Below, one piece after another: positions 33,983 through 46,089 of a DNA stretch of 64,000 nucleotides (positions are counted from its first letter, which is position 1; every line of letters begins with the position of its first letter). The notes under the pieces were generated by a model that saw only the letters and a list, made by a program, of their open reading frames with translations, was not told where the DNA came from and made no database searches. The position numbers and the translations under genes were made by a program. This DNA comes from Gemmatimonadaceae bacterium (GTDB taxonomy: Bacteria > Gemmatimonadota > Gemmatimonadetes > Gemmatimonadales > Gemmatimonadaceae): the NCBI GenBank assembly GCA_014379355.1, contig JACMLX010000149.1, positions 1 through 64,000 on the forward strand, in the 5' to 3' direction.

Positions 33983-34789
33983 ATGACCACGGAAGTCGGC
34001 ATCGACACATTCACGCTGCACCGCGGCCACTCACCGCTGCTGATCAGCATCCCGCACGTAGGCACTGCGATTCCAGCCGATCAGCGCTACCGCTACACGG
34101 AACGCGCACAGGACGTCGAAGACACCGACTGGTTTCTCGATCGCCTGTATGCCTTCGCGGCAGATCTTGGCGCGACATTCATCGTCCCGCGCTTCAGCCG
34201 CTACCTGATCGACCTCAATCGATCCAGTGACAACGCGCCGATGTATCCGGGCCGGAACAACACGGAACTCTGTCCCACACGCCATTTCAGCGGCGACGTC
34301 CTGTATCGCGATGGCCTCGCACCGGATGCCGTCGAGGTCGAACGACGTGTGGCGGAGTACTGGCAGCCGTACCACGACGCGCTGCATGACGAGCTCGCGC
34401 GTCTCCGGCAGGCCCACGGTCATGCCGTGCTGTTCGACGCACACAGCATCAAGAGCGAGCTGCCCTGGCTGTTCGACGGCCAGCTGCCGCACATGAGCGT
34501 CGGGACGGCCAACGGCGCCAGCTGTGCCCCATCACTGTCGGATGCTGTCATGCGCGTGTTCGCGGCACAATCCGACTTCAGTCACGTGCTCGACGGTCGC
34601 TTCAAGGGCGGACACATCACGCGTCATTTCGGCAATCCGGGTGAGGGCATTCATGCAATGCAGCTGGAGATGTGCTGGCGTGCCTACATGGAGGAAACGC
34701 CACCGTACGAGTGGCATGACACACAGGCGGCCGGCGTGACGCCGCTGCTTCGTACTGTCGTCGAATCGCTGCTGCGGTGGGCGCCGTGA
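33983..34789 (+). CDS. hutG: N-formylglutamate deformylase
   Basis: This 268-residue enzyme hydrolyses N-formylglutamate to glutamate and formate, the last step of the formiminoglutamate-deiminase branch of histidine breakdown. Family marks include LISIPHVGTAIP, DTDWFLDRLY, RYLIDLNRSSDN, LFDAHSIKSELPWLFDG and LDGRFKGGHITRHFG. The ATG at 33983 begins the conserved region. The stop overlaps the GTG of hutF (GTGA), so the two last steps are coupled. The earlier hut genes (hutH, hutU, hutI) are not in the window. Confidence 0.93.
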   Translation: MTTEVGIDTFTLHRGHSPLLISIPHVGTAIPADQRYRYTERAQDVEDTDWFLDRLYAFAADLGATFIVPRFSRYLIDLNRSSDNAPMYPGRNNTELCPTRHFSGDVLYRDGLAPDAVEVERRVAEYWQPYHDALHDELARLRQAHGHAVLFDAHSIKSELPWLFDGQLPHMSVGTANGASCAPSLSDAVMRVFAAQSDFSHVLDGRFKGGHITRHFGNPGEGIHAMQLEMCWRAYMEETPPYEWHDTQAAGVTPLLRTVVESLLRWAP

Positions 34790-36153
34790 GCAGGCTGCTC
34801 TGGGCGCCACGGGCGTGGGTCGAAGGTGCATGGGCCAACGCCGTGACGCTGCGCGCCGGTGCGGACGGCTGTTGGGTCGAGGTCATTGCTGACACGGCGT
34901 GCCCGGCGGATGCCGACGTGATGCCCGGCGCGGTGATGCCGGCGATGATCAACGCTCACAGCCATGCCTTCCAGCGCGCGTTCGTGGGACTGTCCGAACG
35001 ACGCGACAGTGCGCGCGATGATTTCTGGAGCTGGCGCGACCGGATGTACGCTGTCGCGCTGCGTATCACACCGGATCAGCTCTATGCCGTTGCGGCACAC
35101 TTGTACGCGGAACTGTTGAACGGCGGCTACACACACACCTGCGAGTTCCACTACCTGCACCACGCCGAGGACGGGCAGCCGTATGCGTCGCATGGTGGTG
35201 ACGACGGGGCGATGAGTGCCGCACTCGCGCGTGCGGCGCAGGATACGGGTATGGGGCTCACGATCCTGCCGGTGTTGTACGAGCGTGCAGGTTTTGCACA
35301 GCCGGTCTTGCGCGAGGATCAACGTCGCTTCGCCACGGATGTGTCTCGCGTGCTGCAGCTACGCGATACGATCCGTGCGTGGAAGCTCCCGAATGTCGAT
35401 GCCGGTGTCGCGATTCACTCGTTGCGCGCCGCGTCGGCCGTGTCGATCCATGAACTCGTACGGGCGTGCGCGAGTGACGCCGCACCGATTCATCTGCACA
35501 TCGCCGAACAGACGAGTGAAGTGGCGGACTGCCTGGCTGCGACGGGATTGCGGCCGATCGAGTGGCTCACGCGCGAAGTTGCACTCGATGCGCGCTGGCA
35601 ACTCGTGCATGCGACGCACACCACACCGGAGGAGATCGACGCGGTGGCGGCAACCGGCGCGGGTGTCGTGTTGTGTCCCGGCACCGAGGCGAATCTCGGT
35701 GATGGCCTGTGCGACCTGCCGCGATGGCTCGCGAGTGGCACACCGTTGTCGCTCGGCACGGACAGTCATGTGGCCCGCACCTGGCCCGAGGAGCTTCGGC
35801 TGCTGGAATACGGCCAGCGTCTCGCGCTCCGGCAACGCAACGTGTCGGCGGAACCATCGGTGGAGGCGAGTACGGCGGCGCGGCTGGTTGGCCGGTGTCT
35901 GGCAGGTGGTGCCGCGGCGGTGGGTCAATCGCGGTGGGGACTCGTCGCGGGCGCGCGCGCGGATCTGTTGGTGATCAACGACACGGACCCGGCGTTGATC
36001 GGCATTCCGCCGTCACAGCTGCTGGATGCCCTCGTGTTCGCGGCGCCGGCAAGGCCTTTCGCACTGGTGATGGTCGCGGGCGCCTGGCGCGCACCCGCTG
36101 ACACGAGCGAGGCGTTCGGCGACGCGATGGCGGCGCTGTGGCCGCGCACGTGA
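34786..36153 (+). CDS. hutF: Formimidoylglutamate deiminase
   Basis: This 455-residue amidohydrolase converts N-formimidoyl-glutamate to N-formylglutamate and ammonia, making the substrate of the preceding hutG product. Visible features are the metal motif INAHSHAFQRA, the HutF-typical WSWRDRMY and YTHTCEFHYLHH, LHIAEQ with the third histidine, HATHTTPEE and GTDSHV with the catalytic Asp. A GTG at 34786, which overlaps the hutG stop, is the likely start; the frame opens three codons earlier at another GTG. It is convergent with the carbonic anhydrase gene. Confidence 0.92.
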   Translation: MSRLLWAPRAWVEGAWANAVTLRAGADGCWVEVIADTACPADADVMPGAVMPAMINAHSHAFQRAFVGLSERRDSARDDFWSWRDRMYAVALRITPDQLYAVAAHLYAELLNGGYTHTCEFHYLHHAEDGQPYASHGGDDGAMSAALARAAQDTGMGLTILPVLYERAGFAQPVLREDQRRFATDVSRVLQLRDTIRAWKLPNVDAGVAIHSLRAASAVSIHELVRACASDAAPIHLHIAEQTSEVADCLAATGLRPIEWLTREVALDARWQLVHATHTTPEEIDAVAATGAGVVLCPGTEANLGDGLCDLPRWLASGTPLSLGTDSHVARTWPEELRLLEYGQRLALRQRNVSAEPSVEASTAARLVGRCLAGGAAAVGQSRWGLVAGARADLLVINDTDPALIGIPPSQLLDALVFAAPARPFALVMVAGAWRAPADTSEAFGDAMAALWPRT

Positions 36154-36184: not shown

Positions 36185-36946
36185 TCAGTCCGTGCCGTAG
36201 ATCATCGGCACGAGATCGAGCACCGCGCCCGTCTGCAGGTCGGTCTGCACGATCCGCCGCACGGAATTGAACGAGCCCATGTCGGCATCGCCATTGATCA
36301 GGATGCCGCCGGAGACGATCACGTAGCGGGCAGGGAACGTCGTGCGCGACACAAGCAGGTCGATCCGCTCGGCAATCGCCTCGTACATCACTTCGGTCGC
36401 TTCCTTGAGCGGCGACTGGGATGACAGGATGCGCTGCGACTCGCGAAGAAAGATCTGTTCGATCGTACCCTGCTGATAGTCGAATTCCGACGGTGCGGTC
36501 GCTGCGATCGCGCCGGCCTGCAGTTTCGCGAGCGCTGCCCGCGCGGCGCCGCAACATCCCGACGTCTTGTGTTGTCCCTTGCGCAGGATGACACCGAGCG
36601 CGCCATCGCGGGAGACACCAATGTGTGGGGCATGATAGATCAGGACAGCGCCGGAATCGGGAACGTGCCCGGCGAATGCACCCATGCCCGTCAGTCCGGC
36701 GTGCGGGAAACCATCGAGCCCGCCAAGCTTGAACGGGCCGAGCATCGCGCGTGCCGAGTCCGGGTACTCGATGCTGTTGACGTCATCGCTGCAGATGGAA
36801 TCGGCGAGCAGTACGTCTTCCGGCGACAATCCGCAGGTGCGGCTCAGGTACGCCAGCGTCCGATTGACGGTTTCCGTCGTCGACCGGGCGTTCGGGTAGT
36901 GTGCGCGAACAATGGACAGGGACTCTTCGTCAGTCAGCGTCGTCAT
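36185..36946 (-). CDS. LCIB/LCIC-family (beta-type) carbonic anhydrase
   Basis: This 253-residue protein matches my knowledge of the limiting-CO2-inducible protein B/C family, whose members in algae and bacteria are a divergent group of beta-carbonic anhydrases. Conserved stretches are DSICSDDVN, GPFKLGGLDGFPHAGLTG, FAGHVPDSGAVLIYHAPHIG and SGCCGA. Cys52, His108 and Cys131 (or Cys132) are the best candidates for the zinc ligands, with the neighbouring Asp residues near Cys52 for catalysis. There is no signal peptide, so it is cytoplasmic. The gene follows a bestrophin-family channel gene by three bases on the same strand, forming a two-gene operon. Together they could interconvert and move bicarbonate and CO2 (inference). 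Confidence 0.82.
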   Translation of the reverse strand: MTTLTDEESLSIVRAHYPNARSTTETVNRTLAYLSRTCGLSPEDVLLADSICSDDVNSIEYPDSARAMLGPFKLGGLDGFPHAGLTGMGAFAGHVPDSGAVLIYHAPHIGVSRDGALGVILRKGQHKTSGCCGAARAALAKLQAGAIAATAPSEFDYQQGTIEQIFLRESQRILSSQSPLKEATEVMYEAIAERIDLLVSRTTFPARYVIVSGGILINGDADMGSFNSVRRIVQTDLQTGAVLDLVPMIYGTD

Positions 36947-36949
36947 GGA

Positions 36950-37972
36950 TCACATGAGGATGGAGTTCACCGCGGTCAGCGGCTTCGGAATGTCGGTCTC
37001 GCCGAGTATCTGGCGAAGATCGATCTCGATCGTGCGGCTGAGTGCCGTGATCGGCACGTCGTTCGCGCTGCCCTCGAACGGATTCTCGGTGCTCTCACCG
37101 ACTTTTTCGAGGGCGAGGAAGATCCATGTGACGATCACGCTGAATGGAATCGTGAGCCAGATGGCCGCACTATCCAGTTTCCGGAACTCCTGCAGCATGC
37201 CGAACGGCACCAGCCACACGAACAGGCGAATGAACCAGTAGTTCAGCGTCGCGAACTGCCGCGGATACGGGAAGTTCTTGATCCGTTCACAGCGCCCCTG
37301 ATGCTCCAGCAGTTCGGCGACTTTCGTGACCAGTGCGACGTGTTGCACGCTGTCCAGCACCCCGCGCGCCGCGAGTGTCTGCAGCGTGGCGGATTGCATC
37401 GCGAGGATGGCGGTGGCGCGGTTGGCGGCGGTCTGCACGGCAGCTGCGTCGTGGTCGCCCATCAGGCGCTGCAGCTCGGTCGGCAGCTGCCCGTCCATTT
37501 CGGATACGGTGAAATAGCGCGCACGGAATTCGCGGTTATCCGCGCGGTCCATGTTCTCCCACACACGCGGTTCGCGCAGCTGGTAGCGCAGTGCGGTGAG
37601 CCAGGCGACATGTCGATGCACCAACGTGCGCCGGAACTGCGCGGCATCATCGTCGCTCAGCGACGGTCCTGACGGCACGAAGTCGCGCGCCATGATCCCC
37701 CACGCCCGACTGGCATTCACGATGCTGCCCCAGATCTGTCGGGCTTCCCAGGTGCGGCCGTAGGTCGCGTTGTTGCGGAAGCCGACCGTGAATGCCGAGG
37801 CAGTTCCGAGCATCGCAACCGGGACCCACGGCACCTGCAGCCAGTCGAAGCCCATCCCGACTGAGAGAATCGTCGGCAGGATGGCCACCGCCGTGAGGAA
37901 CAGCGTCTCGCGTTTCGTCCAGATGAGGACTTCGAGCAGGCGATAACGTTTGCCGGTGTGCATTCGGACCAA
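36950..37972 (-). CDS. Bestrophin-family anion channel
   Basis: This 340-residue membrane protein has the bacterial bestrophin pattern: two hydrophobic segments near the N-terminus, GTASAFTVGFRNNATYGRTW followed by EARQIWGSIVNASRAWG, and in the second half CERIKNFPYPRQFATLNYWF with a hydrophobic pair of segments. Eukaryotic bestrophins are pentameric Cl-/HCO3- channels and the algal BST1-3 proteins carry bicarbonate; bacterial KpBest favours sodium. The gene is first in an operon with an LCIB-type carbonic anhydrase, which makes bicarbonate the likely ion (inference). It is divergent from a cupredoxin gene across a 199-base intergenic region. Confidence 0.92.
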   Translation of the reverse strand: MVRMHTGKRYRLLEVLIWTKRETLFLTAVAILPTILSVGMGFDWLQVPWVPVAMLGTASAFTVGFRNNATYGRTWEARQIWGSIVNASRAWGIMARDFVPSGPSLSDDDAAQFRRTLVHRHVAWLTALRYQLREPRVWENMDRADNREFRARYFTVSEMDGQLPTELQRLMGDHDAAAVQTAANRATAILAMQSATLQTLAARGVLDSVQHVALVTKVAELLEHQGRCERIKNFPYPRQFATLNYWFIRLFVWLVPFGMLQEFRKLDSAAIWLTIPFSVIVTWIFLALEKVGESTENPFEGSANDVPITALSRTIEIDLRQILGETDIPKPLTAVNSILM

Positions 37973-39513: not shown

Positions 39514-39661
39514 CGCGGCGGCGGTCGAATGTTCAGCTTGAAGCGCTCGGGCGTCGGCGCGGTGCAATCCGACCTCGCTGGAGCGACGGGCGAAGTCTCG
39601 AACTCGACTGACCGGCAGGATTCGTATGCGTCGGCACGCCACCGATTCTGGAGCGCTTCTC

Positions 39662-40120
39662 ATGTTGAGTCGTCGCAGCTTCCTTTCCGTCGCCGGGCTG
39701 GCTGGTGCCAGCCTGGTGATCGACCGGCGCCCGCTGCAAATCCGCCACGTGTCATGGTCCGCGATGACGATGTGCGGAACGGCACATGCTCACGCTGGCG
39801 GTGCGACCACACATCCCGCACCGCGGGCAGGCGTCACCGCCGCCCGGGTCCTCACCGGCGCCAAGCTCGCAAAGTGGCCCGATCTGGTGCAGCTCTTCGA
39901 CGGCATTCGCGCCATCCCGGCCATCGCCGATGGCATCCGCTGCAGTTGCGGCTGTGCCGAAATTCCCGGGTACTATTCCCTGCTCAGCTGCTACGAAGGC
40001 GACGCGATGGCGACCATCTGCCCGATCTGTCAGGGCACCGGCCGATTGGCTGTCAGACTACATGCAGAAGGCCAGACGCTGGCGCAGATTCGGGTCGCGG
40101 TCGACGCGCAGTTCGGTTGA
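39662..40120 (+). CDS. Cys-rich exported protein with CxCxC motif (PCYCGC-like)
   Basis: This 152-residue protein starts with a Tat-like signal (LSRRSFLSVAGLAGASLV). The mature half contains RCSCGCAEIPGYYSLLSCYE and then CPICQGTG: a C-x-C-x-C cluster, a single Cys and a CxxC pair, arranged like the PCYCGC-motif proteins. This number of cysteines in an exported protein suggests metal or haem binding or disulfide chemistry. The ATG at 39662 starts the signal. It is followed by the DUF2911 gene (an in-frame ATG there even overlaps this stop). The exact function is unknown. Confidence 0.72.
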   Translation: MLSRRSFLSVAGLAGASLVIDRRPLQIRHVSWSAMTMCGTAHAHAGGATTHPAPRAGVTAARVLTGAKLAKWPDLVQLFDGIRAIPAIADGIRCSCGCAEIPGYYSLLSCYEGDAMATICPICQGTGRLAVRLHAEGQTLAQIRVAVDAQFG

Positions 40121-41234: not shown

Positions 41235-43277
41235 TCATTGGACCACAGTGGCCAGGATGGTTTGCATCAACGTCATATCGACAGGCTTCAGCAGATGGTG
41301 GTCGAAGCCGGCGTTCGTTGACAAATCGCGGTCGCGCGCTTGACCATATCCGGTGATGGCAACGATCACGACGCCGGAAAGGCCGACCTGCTGCCGCAAT
41401 CGCTTGGCGACCTCGTAGCCGTCGAGCAGGGGCAGGCCGATATCCAGCAGGACAACCTGTGGTGGATGCTCGAGGGCCATCGTGAGCGCGGTGACTCCAT
41501 CGTGCGCCAGCCACACGTCCTCCCCTGCCGCTTGCAGCACCATTCCCAGACTCTCGGCGGCGTCGACGTTGTCGTCCACAATGAGAATCCGGATGCTGCG
41601 CTCGGTGCGGCGCGAAACGGACGTCGGAACCACAGGCAGTGGCGACAGCGCATCAGGCTCCGCGACCATCGGGAGCCGCACGACAAACTCACTCCCAATC
41701 CCGACCGTGCTGAAAACCTCAATGCTCCCCTGATGCTGTTCGACCAGGCGCCGCACCAGGCACAAGCCGACGCCCAGACCGCCTTCCGATCGATCGAGCG
41801 ATTGTTCAGCCTGGCTGAACAGGTCGAAGATGCGCGGCAAGAGCTCCGGCGCGATGCCGATCCCGGTGTCGCGCACCCGCACCATCGCCATGTCGTTCTC
41901 CTCTTCCACCGTCAGCCAGATGCCGCCGCCGGCGTCAGTGTATTTCACGGCATTGTTCAGCAAGTTGACCACGACCTGCTCCAGTCGCGCAGCATCCGCG
42001 TGCAGATACAGTTCCCGCGCTGTCAAGGTGACCGTGAGCGAGTGCGCACGTTGCAGGACCAGCAACCCGGTTGTTGCCACGGCTCGCTCGACGATCTGAC
42101 GGATCGTGCACCGCTCCAGACGCAGCTGAAACATGCCTGTTGTGAATCGGGATACATCCAGCAGATCGTCGACGAGGCGAGTCATTTGCCGGACCTGGCG
42201 CTCGATGATCTGCAGGGCCTGCGTGTGCCGTGGCTCTGCACTTGGCGGCAAGTTCAGTATCTCCACCGCGCTCAGCATCGGAGCCAACGGATTGCGCAGC
42301 TCATGGCCTAGCATCGCAAGAAATTCGTCCTTGCGTCGATCGGCGTCGGCCAATGCATCCGCCTGCGAACGCAGTTGCAGTTCAGCCTGTTTGCGCGCTG
42401 TGATGTCAAAGAAAATGATGGCGACGCGCCGACTGCCCGCACCGCCAAGCCGAAATGCGAACAGCTCGAGCACGCGGTCCACATTGGGAACCGTGCGCTC
42501 GAATCGTATCGGCACACCGGTACTGCACACCCGGTCACATGCCGAGAACCATTCCTCCGACTCATCAGGCAGGAGGTGTCGCACGGTCTGGCCGATCTCG
42601 CCGCGAATATCGGACTGCGCCAGGAAAGCGGGATTGAAACTGACGTAGCGGAAATCCACGGGCTCGTCCGACGCGCCGTCGATTCTTTCGACGACATACA
42701 GACACTCGTTGAGCGAGTCGACCAGCGTACGGTACCGTTCCTCGGATTCGCGCAGGGCCGCCTCGGCGACGCTCCGCTTCGTCGACAACTCGAACCGTTC
42801 GATGGAGTTGTCCAGCGAACGACTCAGGCTGTCGGCGGAGGTCCAACTCTTTCCGATGTAATCCTGTGCTCCGGCGCGAAGCAGCTTGGCACCGTCCTCG
42901 CGGCTGACACCATCCCAGCCGGTGATCACAACAGTTGGACAGGGGGGCACCGTGTTGTTTCCGCAGAGTGCCTTGAGTACGTCCAGTGCGCTCATATCCG
43001 GAAGGTGAAAATCGAGCAGCAGGCAGTCGAACGGACAGGCCGCATCCGCATCGCGCTGCGCGGCCCGGAACAGCTCCACCGCCGACGCCCCGTTTTCGGC
43101 TTCGGTAAAGACGTATCGACGTTCTGAGCCGAGCAGCAGCATTTGCCGCATATTGGACCGATCGTCTGGATTGTCATCCACGATCAGAACGCGGCATCGC
43201 TGGCTGGTGGACTGTCGATCGCCTGCGGCATCTGGCCCGCCGTTCGCTGTGTCCGACCAGGAAGGCGGAATGGTCAT
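41235..43277 (-). CDS. Hybrid sensor histidine kinase (REC-PAS-HisKA-HATPase-REC)
   Basis: This 680-residue protein starts with a receiver domain (RVLIVDDNPDDRSN, phospho-acceptor Asp in CLLLDFHLPD), then a PAS domain (about 175-300, ending FFDITARKQAEL), the dimerisation domain with His325 in LGHELRNPL, a HATPase with NLLNNAVKYTD and VRDTGIGIAPEL, and a C-terminal receiver (ILIVDDNVDAAES, Asp in VVLLDIGLPLLDG). No membrane segment is seen. It is the last gene of the phytochrome operon, its start overlapping the response-regulator stop (ATGA). Phosphate could pass from the phytochrome through the receivers, but the route is inference. Confidence 0.93.
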   Translation of the reverse strand: MTIPPSWSDTANGGPDAAGDRQSTSQRCRVLIVDDNPDDRSNMRQMLLLGSERRYVFTEAENGASAVELFRAAQRDADAACPFDCLLLDFHLPDMSALDVLKALCGNNTVPPCPTVVITGWDGVSREDGAKLLRAGAQDYIGKSWTSADSLSRSLDNSIERFELSTKRSVAEAALRESEERYRTLVDSLNECLYVVERIDGASDEPVDFRYVSFNPAFLAQSDIRGEIGQTVRHLLPDESEEWFSACDRVCSTGVPIRFERTVPNVDRVLELFAFRLGGAGSRRVAIIFFDITARKQAELQLRSQADALADADRRKDEFLAMLGHELRNPLAPMLSAVEILNLPPSAEPRHTQALQIIERQVRQMTRLVDDLLDVSRFTTGMFQLRLERCTIRQIVERAVATTGLLVLQRAHSLTVTLTARELYLHADAARLEQVVVNLLNNAVKYTDAGGGIWLTVEEENDMAMVRVRDTGIGIAPELLPRIFDLFSQAEQSLDRSEGGLGVGLCLVRRLVEQHQGSIEVFSTVGIGSEFVVRLPMVAEPDALSPLPVVPTSVSRRTERSIRILIVDDNVDAAESLGMVLQAAGEDVWLAHDGVTALTMALEHPPQVVLLDIGLPLLDGYEVAKRLRQQVGLSGVVIVAITGYGQARDRDLSTNAGFDHHLLKPVDMTLMQTILATVVQ

Positions 43278-43717
43278 TTGCTCAGGGATCGATGCGTCGG
43301 AAGGACAGCGTGGTTGAGCCAGTACGCGAAGATGGTCTGCAGAATTTCCAGATGTGTGGCGTGATTGACGGGCTTGATGTGATACGCATTCGCACCATTG
43401 CCATATGCTGTCGCGACATCACGGGGGTTGGCGGATGCGCTCAGCACGACCAGAGGGATCGTGAGGAGTGTGGTGTTCTCGCGGATCTGCACCAACGCAT
43501 CCCGACCGTCGGCACTCGGCGTATTCAGGTCCAGCAGGATCAGCGCGGGCAACGTACTGCCGTGCTGCAGGCACTCGAGCAGCATGTCGACGCAGTCGGT
43601 GCCGGAGATCGCACGACGGAGCTGGTTGGCCAGGCCGGCGCGACGCACCGCCTCGGTCACGGTCTCGTAGTCGTCGTCGTTGTCCTCGACCACAAGAACG
43701 TGATCCGTCCGGCTCAT
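43274..43717 (-). CDS. Single-domain response regulator (phytochrome-associated)
   Basis: This 147-residue protein is a receiver domain alone: VLVVEDNDDDYETV with the acidic pocket, phospho-acceptor Asp in ALILLDLNTPSADG, the Ser of VVLSAS and the Lys in YHIKPVNH. It matches the Rcp1-like regulators that accompany bacterial phytochromes. It has no DNA-binding output, so it must relay phosphate or act through protein contacts. It overlaps the phytochrome gene (start within ATGA) and the hybrid kinase gene. Confidence 0.92.
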   Translation of the reverse strand: MSRTDHVLVVEDNDDDYETVTEAVRRAGLANQLRRAISGTDCVDMLLECLQHGSTLPALILLDLNTPSADGRDALVQIRENTTLLTIPLVVLSASANPRDVATAYGNGANAYHIKPVNHATHLEILQTIFAYWLNHAVLPTHRSLSK

Positions 43718-46089
43718 TCGCGGATCCGATTGGGTTGCGCGAGCGATGGCAGCGTGAAGTAAAACGTGCTGCCCTGGTCCAGTGTCGAGGCCAGCCAGAC
43801 GTGGCCGCCGTGCCGGTTCACGACTTTCTTCACGACCGTCAGGCCGGCCCCGACACCACCGCCGAATTCGTCCCGTCCGTGGAGCCGCTTGAACATCCGA
43901 AAGATCTGCTCAAAATGTCGTGGTTCGATACCGATCCCATTGTCGCGGACGTAGTAAATCGTCTCGCCGTCCGCGTCCGCTGGCATGTTCGGACGCAGGC
44001 CGGGTTCGTCGCTGCGCAGGTAGCCGACGTCGATGCGGGGGTGCGGATCACGATTGTACTTGAGCGCATTGCTGATCAAGTTGCTGAAAATCTCCCGGAC
44101 TCGCACCAGGTCGCACAGCACGGTGGGAAGTGGGCGCTCGAACCCGACGGTGACGCCTGCGTTGTTCCTGCCGACGCCGACCATCTCCAGCGCATCGGCC
44201 ACCACGTCATTCAGGTCGACGGCTTCGAACTCGAGATTGGTCCGCCCGACGCGTGAATAGTGCAGCAGGGAATTCAGCAGACTGTCCATGCGCATCGTGA
44301 GACGCATCAGGCTGTCGAGGCGGTGGCGATTCTCCGCGCCGAACGTCTCGGCGCTTTCCAGCAGCTGATGGGCGTACCGATGGATGCCCCGCAGCGGCTC
44401 CTTGAGATCGTGCGATGCCACATACGCAAATGCGTCCAACTCCTCATTGCTGCTCGTGAGGTCGACGTTGAGGGCGCTGATTCGCTCCCCCTCCGAGGTG
44501 GCCAGATCCATGATCAGCAAGCGAAGCCGTAGCGCTGCGTCGAGCTCCAGGGTGGTCCATGGAAGCGCCCGATTCCGCACCGACTCCACAAAAAGTTCGA
44601 ATGACCGGCGCGGCGTCAATCGCATGCCATTGGGGCCAGGGACCAGCGGCTTGTCATCCGGATGACCCGCCCACTTCACGGTTTGTATCGTCTCCGGCCG
44701 AAACCACATGATCAGGTCGCGACGCAGTCGGGAGACCTGCACCGCGATCAGGCCGCTGGCGACGGCGCTGATTTCCAGGCCTGCCGGATACTCGCGCGAC
44801 AGCGTATCCGTCGCGAATACGGGTCGGGTCAACGAGGAAAACTCGGGCCGGAGAATCACCCAGTCCGCCAGCGCATCGAGCTGTTCCTCGGTCGGTGTGC
44901 TGCCGGCAGTCCACCAGCGATCCATGTGGTACAACGCCGCCCCATCGGCGTCCATCGCGTCGAGCAGCGACGGTTGCCGATCCGAAAGCGCCAGCAGGTC
45001 GCCTTCTCGGGCGGCCCTGGCCATGAGCTCCTGATGGACCTGTTCCACTCTGAGCCCATATTCCAGCAACTCGATTCGATCGGACGACTTGAGCTGCAAG
45101 GACGCGACCTGAGCGAGCAGTTCGCAGGCAGCACGCATCTGGTGCGGAAACGCGGTCGGCTTGCGGTGGTGACACGCGATCAGCCCCCAGAGCTCACCTT
45201 CAATCAGGATCGGCATGGTCAGCGATGCGCCGACACCCATGTTGGCGAGATACTCGGTGTACATCACCGATGCGCCGCGCAGGGAGCAGTACGTCATGGT
45301 GAGCGGCTTCCCCGTATCGGGGTTCGCCAGCGGCACGAGTTCGATCAAGGGGCCTGCGGCATTCGGGACTGGCCTGATCCAGATGCGCTGATAGATGTCA
45401 CGCGCCGGCTTGGGGATGTCTGCCTCGGGATAGTGCAGTCCGAGCCAGGGTGCCAACTCCTCCACTTTGCTTTCCGCGACGACCTCCCCGTGGTTGTCCG
45501 CGTGAAAGCGGTACACCATCACGCGATCCAGTCCCGTGATGGTGCGCACTTCGCGAGCGATGCGATCACAGAAGGCAACTTGACCCACAGTGCTCTGCAT
45601 ACGACTCACGGCCGCACGAACGGAGGTGAAGAAATCACCCGCTGGATGCAGGAGCGGATCTGCGCCACGTCCACTCGACTCGAACTCCAGAATGAGGACA
45701 CCGCTCATCGTGTGCACACAGACATCGAGTGGCGCGATGTCGGCCCGTGCCGGAAGCGTGAACGCGAACAACGCATTCCCTTCGATCGCCTCCTCGGCCA
45801 TCATGGAACGCAGGCGTGCTTCATGCTCGCTGCTCACGAGGCTGCGCAGCGGGTGACCGAGCAGACGGTCGGGTGCTGCACCGAAATACTGTTCGGAATT
45901 CTCGCTCACCTGAAGGATGGTCAGGTCCGGGAGACGCGCTGTGACCAATGCGCCGTGTGACTGAATACATCCCGGTGCCTGAACCGGCTCGCTGTCGCAG
46001 TTGGTCAGACTGGTGCCATGCCGCTTGATGCTGTACACGCCGTCGGCCCACGGCAGCGGCGTGGCTCCGTCGCGCGCGGCTGTCGTCAT
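43714..46089 (-). CDS. bphP: Bacteriophytochrome histidine kinase
   Basis: This 791-residue red/far-red photoreceptor has the PAS-GAF-PHY core and a histidine kinase. Cys31 in SLTNCDSEP, in the segment ahead of APGCIQSHGAL, is placed as the biliverdin-attaching cysteine. The GAF domain has MVYRFHADNHGEVVAES, LGLHYPEADIPKPARDIYQ (PEADIP replaces the usual PASDIP) and YCSLRGASVMYTEYL; the PHY domain has the tongue region near HPDDKPLV. The kinase part has His560 in ASHDLKEPLRG, NLISNALKYN and DNGIGIEP. It is preceded by the heme oxygenase gene that would supply biliverdin and followed by a response regulator, each overlapping by four bases. Confidence 0.94.
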   Translation of the reverse strand: MTTAARDGATPLPWADGVYSIKRHGTSLTNCDSEPVQAPGCIQSHGALVTARLPDLTILQVSENSEQYFGAAPDRLLGHPLRSLVSSEHEARLRSMMAEEAIEGNALFAFTLPARADIAPLDVCVHTMSGVLILEFESSGRGADPLLHPAGDFFTSVRAAVSRMQSTVGQVAFCDRIAREVRTITGLDRVMVYRFHADNHGEVVAESKVEELAPWLGLHYPEADIPKPARDIYQRIWIRPVPNAAGPLIELVPLANPDTGKPLTMTYCSLRGASVMYTEYLANMGVGASLTMPILIEGELWGLIACHHRKPTAFPHQMRAACELLAQVASLQLKSSDRIELLEYGLRVEQVHQELMARAAREGDLLALSDRQPSLLDAMDADGAALYHMDRWWTAGSTPTEEQLDALADWVILRPEFSSLTRPVFATDTLSREYPAGLEISAVASGLIAVQVSRLRRDLIMWFRPETIQTVKWAGHPDDKPLVPGPNGMRLTPRRSFELFVESVRNRALPWTTLELDAALRLRLLIMDLATSEGERISALNVDLTSSNEELDAFAYVASHDLKEPLRGIHRYAHQLLESAETFGAENRHRLDSLMRLTMRMDSLLNSLLHYSRVGRTNLEFEAVDLNDVVADALEMVGVGRNNAGVTVGFERPLPTVLCDLVRVREIFSNLISNALKYNRDPHPRIDVGYLRSDEPGLRPNMPADADGETIYYVRDNGIGIEPRHFEQIFRMFKRLHGRDEFGGGVGAGLTVVKKVVNRHGGHVWLASTLDQGSTFYFTLPSLAQPNRIRE

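Follow-up and report, generated by a model that had tools for sequence, protein, structure and literature searches.

The window analyzed here, a stretch of 64,000 nucleotides from a Gemmatimonadaceae genome, carries on its minus strand two adjacent genes that encode a bestrophin-family channel (36950-37963, 337 aa counted from the ATG; PF25539, 169.5 bits) and an LCIB/C-type beta-carbonic anhydrase (36185-36946, 253 aa; PF18599, 209.8 bits). The bestrophin stop codon and the LCIB start are separated by 3 nt (36947-36949, minus strand; TGA TCC ATG in the sequence). Because the gap is this short, the arrangement implies a single transcript, on which translation of the two genes is probably coupled. 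The common strand, the short gap, and a gene order shared with 45 loci among the best 80 of 127 LCIB loci are those of an operon. A convergent amidohydrolase gene lies 3' of the pair and a divergent gene without a Pfam match lies 5' of it, so that bestrophin and LCIB seem to form a unit of two genes. A search for sigma-70-type promoter patterns gave none at the locus, a result that carries little weight for this organism.

A preliminary description of this DNA had reported both open reading frames at these positions and on this strand, which the sequence confirms. Its coordinates for LCIB stand. For the bestrophin it gave a TTG start (37972), but translation probably begins 9 nt further in, with the ATG at 37963: this start yields the conserved N terminus MHTG, with M1 invariant in the family alignment, and the profile match to the bestrophin in the whole genome begins at the same position. 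The two bestrophin signatures that had been noted, GFRNNATYGRTWEAR and CERIKNFPYP, are present. The source assembly (4.8 Mb, 89.6% complete) encodes a single LCIB and two bestrophins of PF25539. As origins of the pair, contamination and very recent transfer were both rejected, since its GC content (0.63) and GC3 (0.79-0.82) are near the values of the neighboring genes and the nearest bestrophin is found in another Gemmatimonadota genome.

Elsewhere in the window, three genes in a row (41235-46089, minus strand) form a red-light signaling cluster comprising a bacteriophytochrome histidine kinase with the architecture PAS_2-GAF-PHY-HisKA-HATPase (43714-46089), a response-regulator-like open reading frame (43274-43717), and a hybrid kinase with receiver domains (41235-43277). 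On the plus strand, an N-formylglutamate amidohydrolase adjoins an amidohydrolase resembling formimidoylglutamate deiminase (HutF; together 33983-36153), a probable histidine-degradation pair. A small multi-cysteine protein (39626-40120, plus strand), which has a weak match to the PCYCGC family (19.8 bits, below the cut-off), overlaps the start of an open reading frame with a DUF2911 domain.

Assignment of the enzyme to the LCIB family, proposed earlier from the letters alone, is borne out by its profile match (LCIB_C_CA; E=4e-62, with a curated cut-off of 25 bits) and by structural comparison. The eight best PDB matches of its AlphaFold model (pLDDT 92.9) are all LCIB-family structures, headed by PtLCIB4 (5b5y; TM 0.78 by query and 0.83 by target, 30% identity) and continuing with 6kfs and then Chlamydomonas LCIC and LCIB (18-19% identity); classical beta-carbonic anhydrases rank below these with low scores. 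In the PDB search, residues 5-47 at the N terminus matched TAL-effector repeats; as no single stretch was significant, these matches were dismissed as an artefact. The protein is predicted to be cytosolic.

In an alignment of 33 bacterial homologues, residues C52, D54, H94, H108, R122, C131, and C132 are invariant, and the window protein has the Cys-His-Cys zinc site together with the active-site Asp, His, and Arg of the family. The three candidate zinc ligands named in the preliminary description, Cys52, His108, and Cys131, are all intact. Cys52 (36791-36793, minus strand), a predicted ligand followed by Ser53 and Asp54, is also invariant in the other aligned LCIB sequences; His108 (36623-36625, minus strand) is the second predicted ligand, and in the Cys131-Cys132 pair (36551-36556, minus strand) the ligand is most likely Cys131. 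The invariant His94 (36665-36667, minus strand) is equivalent, as counted from the alignment, to PtLCIB4 His88, the residue mutated in 5b5z. Ser53 occupies the position mutated in PtLCIB4 S47R, where the 33 bacterial sequences have Ser in 26 cases, Cys in 4, and Ala in 3.

Conservation of fold and catalytic activity do not always coincide in this family. Some LCIB homologues with an intact fold show no carbonic anhydrase activity, some members are inactive alone, and the inactivity of Chlamydomonas LCIB/LCIC goes with disorder of a His and an Arg (reviewed in PMC5876011). PtLCIB3 and PtLCIB4 appear constitutively active (PMC9614477). Given this apparent activity and the invariance of the catalytic residues, CO2 hydration by bacterial LCIB is plausible.

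The membrane partner was likewise confirmed as a bestrophin by its profile match (Bestrophin_2; E=1.5e-49; cut-off 27 bits), and its AlphaFold model (pLDDT 87.5) retrieves KpBest structures as the top Foldseek matches (TM by target about 0.87). Its pore neck, identified by alignment to KpBest, consists of Thr54-Phe58-Phe62 (37778-37804, minus strand), which aligns with I62/I66/F70 of KpBest and I76/F80/F84 of hBest1. The role of bestrophin neck residues has been described (PMC8496536): the I-I-F neck of KpBest passes Na+, the substitution I66F shifts KpBest towards Cl-, and animal bestrophins have an I-F-F neck. Among the LCIB-linked bestrophins with the neck region present (51 proteins, from the best 80 of 127 loci), 47 have T-F-F and 4 have I-F-F. 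The middle residue is therefore Phe in 51 of 51, as at Phe58 of the window protein, in agreement with the anion-selective animal pattern. Thirty-one other bestrophins were compared. All 28 ordinary paralogues from the same genomes carry L, I, or M at mid-neck, and the three exceptions (L020, L030, and L068), which belong to the linked type, are encoded within a few kb of LCIB. The T/I-F-F neck is shared by the entire bestrophin clade, also by members whose genes lie at a distance from any LCIB, and the idea that it is specific to LCIB partners was rejected on this ground. As a property of the whole clade, the neck predicts anion selectivity and is by itself no proof of a link to bicarbonate. 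The cytosolic domain contains about 30 additional residues (approximately residues 135-164 of the window bestrophin) that include an invariant Trp135, have no KpBest counterpart, and are also found clade-wide.

The generality of the arrangement was assessed in one scan of 84,980 species genomes, which returned 127 LCIB loci, and the best 80 of these were analyzed. They come mostly from Bacteroidota, and also from Acidobacteriota, Gemmatimonadota, Nitrospira, and Kapaibacterium. Contig ends truncate two of the loci (L007 from Nitrospira, and L013, in which the end of a bestrophin is visible), which leaves 78 scored loci. In 52 of the 78, from Bacteroidota, Acidobacteriota, and Gemmatimonadota, the immediate neighbor of LCIB is a bestrophin of the same clade, encoded on the same strand; this rate holds for the window-type LCIB branch only, as the scored loci come from the 80 nearest among the 127. 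The bestrophin is directly upstream in 45 of these 78 loci, with gaps of -4 to 96 nt, mostly -4 to 20 nt, and directly downstream in 7, which fall on several separate tree branches; LCIB has no adjacent bestrophin in the other 26. Gene fusions of bestrophin and LCIB were not seen. The adjacency is thus not peculiar to the window, and the functional pairing of channel and enzyme suggested in the preliminary description gains support from the survey. Conservation in three phyla puts the pair well outside what chance would produce; a binomial tail of about 1e-111, a figure that takes no account of shared ancestry, follows from a rough, assumed chance of 0.3% per locus. At least 14 switches between adjacent and non-adjacent states occur on the LCIB tree and at least 14 on the bestrophin-clade tree, both of which are quick trees with many modestly supported branches. 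These changes, together with the inverted order in seven loci, indicate that the association has been re-formed or kept repeatedly. Pairwise distances of 51 LCIB/bestrophin pairs correlate (r 0.36, permutation p about 4e-4).

Both genes are patchily distributed. In phylum draws, LCIB was present in 2 of 200 Gemmatimonadota genomes, in 34 of 346 genomes of the phylum of Chryseobacterium, and in 1 of 247 Acidobacteriota genomes, the centre genome itself. The window type of LCIB accounts for five genomes in the Chryseobacterium-phylum draw, with an adjacent bestrophin in three of the five. Linked-type bestrophins without LCIB are common, making up most of those in Bacteroidota and three of five in Gemmatimonadota. 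Carriage on plasmids was rejected, since a search of 72,556 plasmid records (E 1e-5) detected no LCIB. One reading of this distribution would be that two separately useful genes co-travel by horizontal transfer with no shared function, as their patchiness and their frequent separation would allow. The repeated changes of adjacency, the inverted order in several branches, the mostly very short gaps, and the presence of a different bicarbonate transporter beside another LCIB branch (see below) all speak against it, and we consider it very improbable.

Further genes recur around the pair. In 16 scanned clusters, two of which (L036 and L146) belong to a single genome and probably represent the same locus, the bestrophin-LCIB pair is immediately preceded by an ion channel gene (PF07885) with a K+-filter-like TSIGFGD stretch; in L069 this gene adjoins an LCIB without bestrophin. 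In Chryseobacterium-type clusters, DoxX-like and small unassigned genes recur ahead of the K+-channel-like gene (L036:3367-4149). CPA1 Na+/H+ antiporters (PF00999; TIGR00831 over its cut-off) occur within 1.5 kb of the cluster at eight LCIB loci from two phyla. A second branch of LCIB, represented by 29 genomes, has a different companion: SbtA (PF05982) is encoded in 9 of the 29 and is located within 3 kb of LCIB in 8 of these 9, always in divergent orientation, and no bestrophin was found within 1.5 kb of LCIB in 25 loci of this branch. That two LCIB branches are accompanied by transporters of unrelated types, together with the genes for pH and K+ handling, argues that bacterial LCIB works with the movement of inorganic carbon across the membrane. 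At three longer-gap loci of the second branch (L123, L128, and L137), isocitrate dehydrogenase, by a Pfam assignment run on one of them, lies directly upstream of LCIB, with SbtA beyond. In one LCIB-less relative (L149:1492-3101), the usual LCIB slot directly behind a linked-clade bestrophin, whose reading frame is interrupted by an in-frame TAA, holds a classical beta-carbonic anhydrase (PF00484); as the only such case among 31 genomes, it led us to reject this enzyme as a general substitute partner.

Recurrence in many unrelated, mostly non-photosynthetic bacteria points to a bicarbonate-handling module. Rubisco (PF00016) was found neither in the source genome, at the completeness given above, nor in 20 of 21 genomes tested. 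A link to Rubisco-based carbon fixation was accordingly rejected for the source genome, which lacks the Rubisco expected of a pyrenoid- or Rubisco-based CO2-concentrating mechanism, in keeping with the stand-alone module envisaged in the preliminary description. A role for LCIB as the only carbonic anhydrase of the cell was also rejected, as a classical beta-carbonic anhydrase (PF00484) is present in 25 of 25 genomes tested.

Based on these data, our preferred model, which we hold to be somewhat probable, is that the carbonic anhydrase and a HCO3--permeable channel constitute a bicarbonate-handling unit for pH and charge control, with HCO3- moving outward. LCIB would act as a cytoplasmic zinc beta-carbonic anhydrase that interconverts CO2 and HCO3-, and the bestrophin would form a pentameric, HCO3--permeable channel in the inner membrane, the anion selectivity of which is suggested by the Thr-Phe-Phe neck and the large domain of which would face the LCIB side. 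Hydration of CO2 in the cytosol would in this way be coupled to the movement of HCO3- through the membrane: as CO2 is hydrated, HCO3- would leave and H+ would stay, acidifying the cytosol and shifting charge. Such a unit may help the cell to balance pH and ions in alkaline conditions or at high respiratory CO2, with Na+/H+ antiporters and K+-channel-like proteins as partners where they occur in the cluster. On thermodynamic grounds, net flow through a passive channel in an inside-negative cell is most likely directed out of the cell. For a membrane potential of about -120 mV, HCO3- in the cytosol is estimated to reach equilibrium at a level about 100-fold below that outside; at neutral-to-alkaline pH and air-level CO2, cytosolic HCO3- should be above this value, which would drive an outward flux and, with the carbonic anhydrase inside, leave protons in the cytosol. 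A more elaborate version has LCIB docking on the cytosolic face of the bestrophin as a CO2-hydrating, HCO3--releasing complex for pH and charge control, partnered by K+ channels or Na+/H+ antiporters, with SbtA replacing the channel in another branch and the algal LCIB/C-BST system being a descendant or a parallel re-use; this version is tentative and, taken as a whole, rather unlikely.

The preliminary description had favored bicarbonate entry, perhaps for anaplerosis or pH control. An entry model, in which the channel admits HCO3- and LCIB balances CO2 and HCO3- for PEP or pyruvate carboxylase, can draw on the association of the second LCIB branch with SbtA, an inward Na+/HCO3- symporter, on the isocitrate dehydrogenase that adjoins second-branch LCIB in some genomes, and on the requirement of heterotrophs for HCO3- in their carboxylases. 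However, a passive anion channel cannot concentrate HCO3- against an inside-negative potential and would instead let it out, so that entry is not supported in the form proposed. No carboxylase was seen as a recurrent neighbor of the pair in the neighborhoods examined, and nothing points specifically to anaplerosis, since a classical beta-carbonic anhydrase is already present in all genomes tested. We therefore regard this explanation as unlikely. The suggestion of pH control, by comparison, gains support from the antiporter and K+-channel-like genes. The latter could also be read as part of an osmotic or ionic valve, in which a K+ channel, an anion channel, and the carbonic anhydrase release K+ and HCO3-/Cl- to adjust turgor or membrane potential and LCIB supplies HCO3- as the counter-ion. 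Its mainstay is the PF07885 gene directly upstream of bestrophin in the 16 clusters, but this gene is missing from the window and is found only in Bacteroidota-type loci, and the recurring Na+/H+ antiporters favor pH over turgor; such a valve seems quite unlikely.

The two protein families and their partnership in algae are already known. A report of the bacterial pair was not found in searchable papers, an absence that is no proof because most subscription papers lay outside the scope of the search, and LCIB is unmentioned in a 2026 survey of microbial carbonic anhydrase genes. There is as yet no settled account of how LCIB and bestrophins work together in algae, and chloroplasts are a difficult place in which to test either of them. 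With a compact version of two genes in cultivable Flavobacterium, Pedobacter, and Chryseobacterium, binding, flux direction, and activity would become testable in simple cells. The pair would also place the poorly understood bestrophins of bacteria in a defined physiological context, and it could provide small parts for the engineering of CO2 capture.

The bacterial pair draws on the same two families as LCIB/LCIC and BST1-3 of the Chlamydomonas CO2-concentrating mechanism, where LCIB/C is reported to interact with BST1 and BST3 and is proposed to turn leaked CO2 into HCO3-, with BST1-3 carrying HCO3- from the stroma to the thylakoid lumen (PMC6708349). The sides occupied by enzyme and channel, stroma and thylakoid membrane, match the bacterial cytoplasm and inner membrane, and the outward flux estimated for the bacterial channel would parallel the HCO3- transport proposed for BST1-3. 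In contrast to the algal system, the bacterial genes reside in genomes nearly all of which lack Rubisco and look like one transcription unit, and their LCIB is nearer to PtLCIB4 than to Chlamydomonas LCIB/LCIC. With PtLCIB4, a protein of the diatom Phaeodactylum tricornutum that is about 30-32% identical to the window LCIB, it shares the fold, the Cys-His-Cys zinc site, the active-site His and Arg, and the Ser that follows the first zinc-ligand Cys. The bestrophin resembles KpBest, the Na+ channel of Klebsiella pneumoniae, in its PF25539 fold but differs in having T-F-F in place of the cation-type I-I-F neck and in its additional cytosolic-domain residues. SbtA beside LCIB likewise joins a bacterial LCIB to an inorganic-carbon transporter, although it involves active Na+-driven uptake, a divergent orientation, and another LCIB branch. 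Finally, the vectorial carbonic anhydrases DAB2 and NDH-1MS also couple CO2 hydration to a membrane process, in their case the energy-driven accumulation of HCO3- for carbon fixation (PMC13144422); their membrane proteins are unrelated, and the bestrophin-LCIB pair has no energy-coupling subunit.
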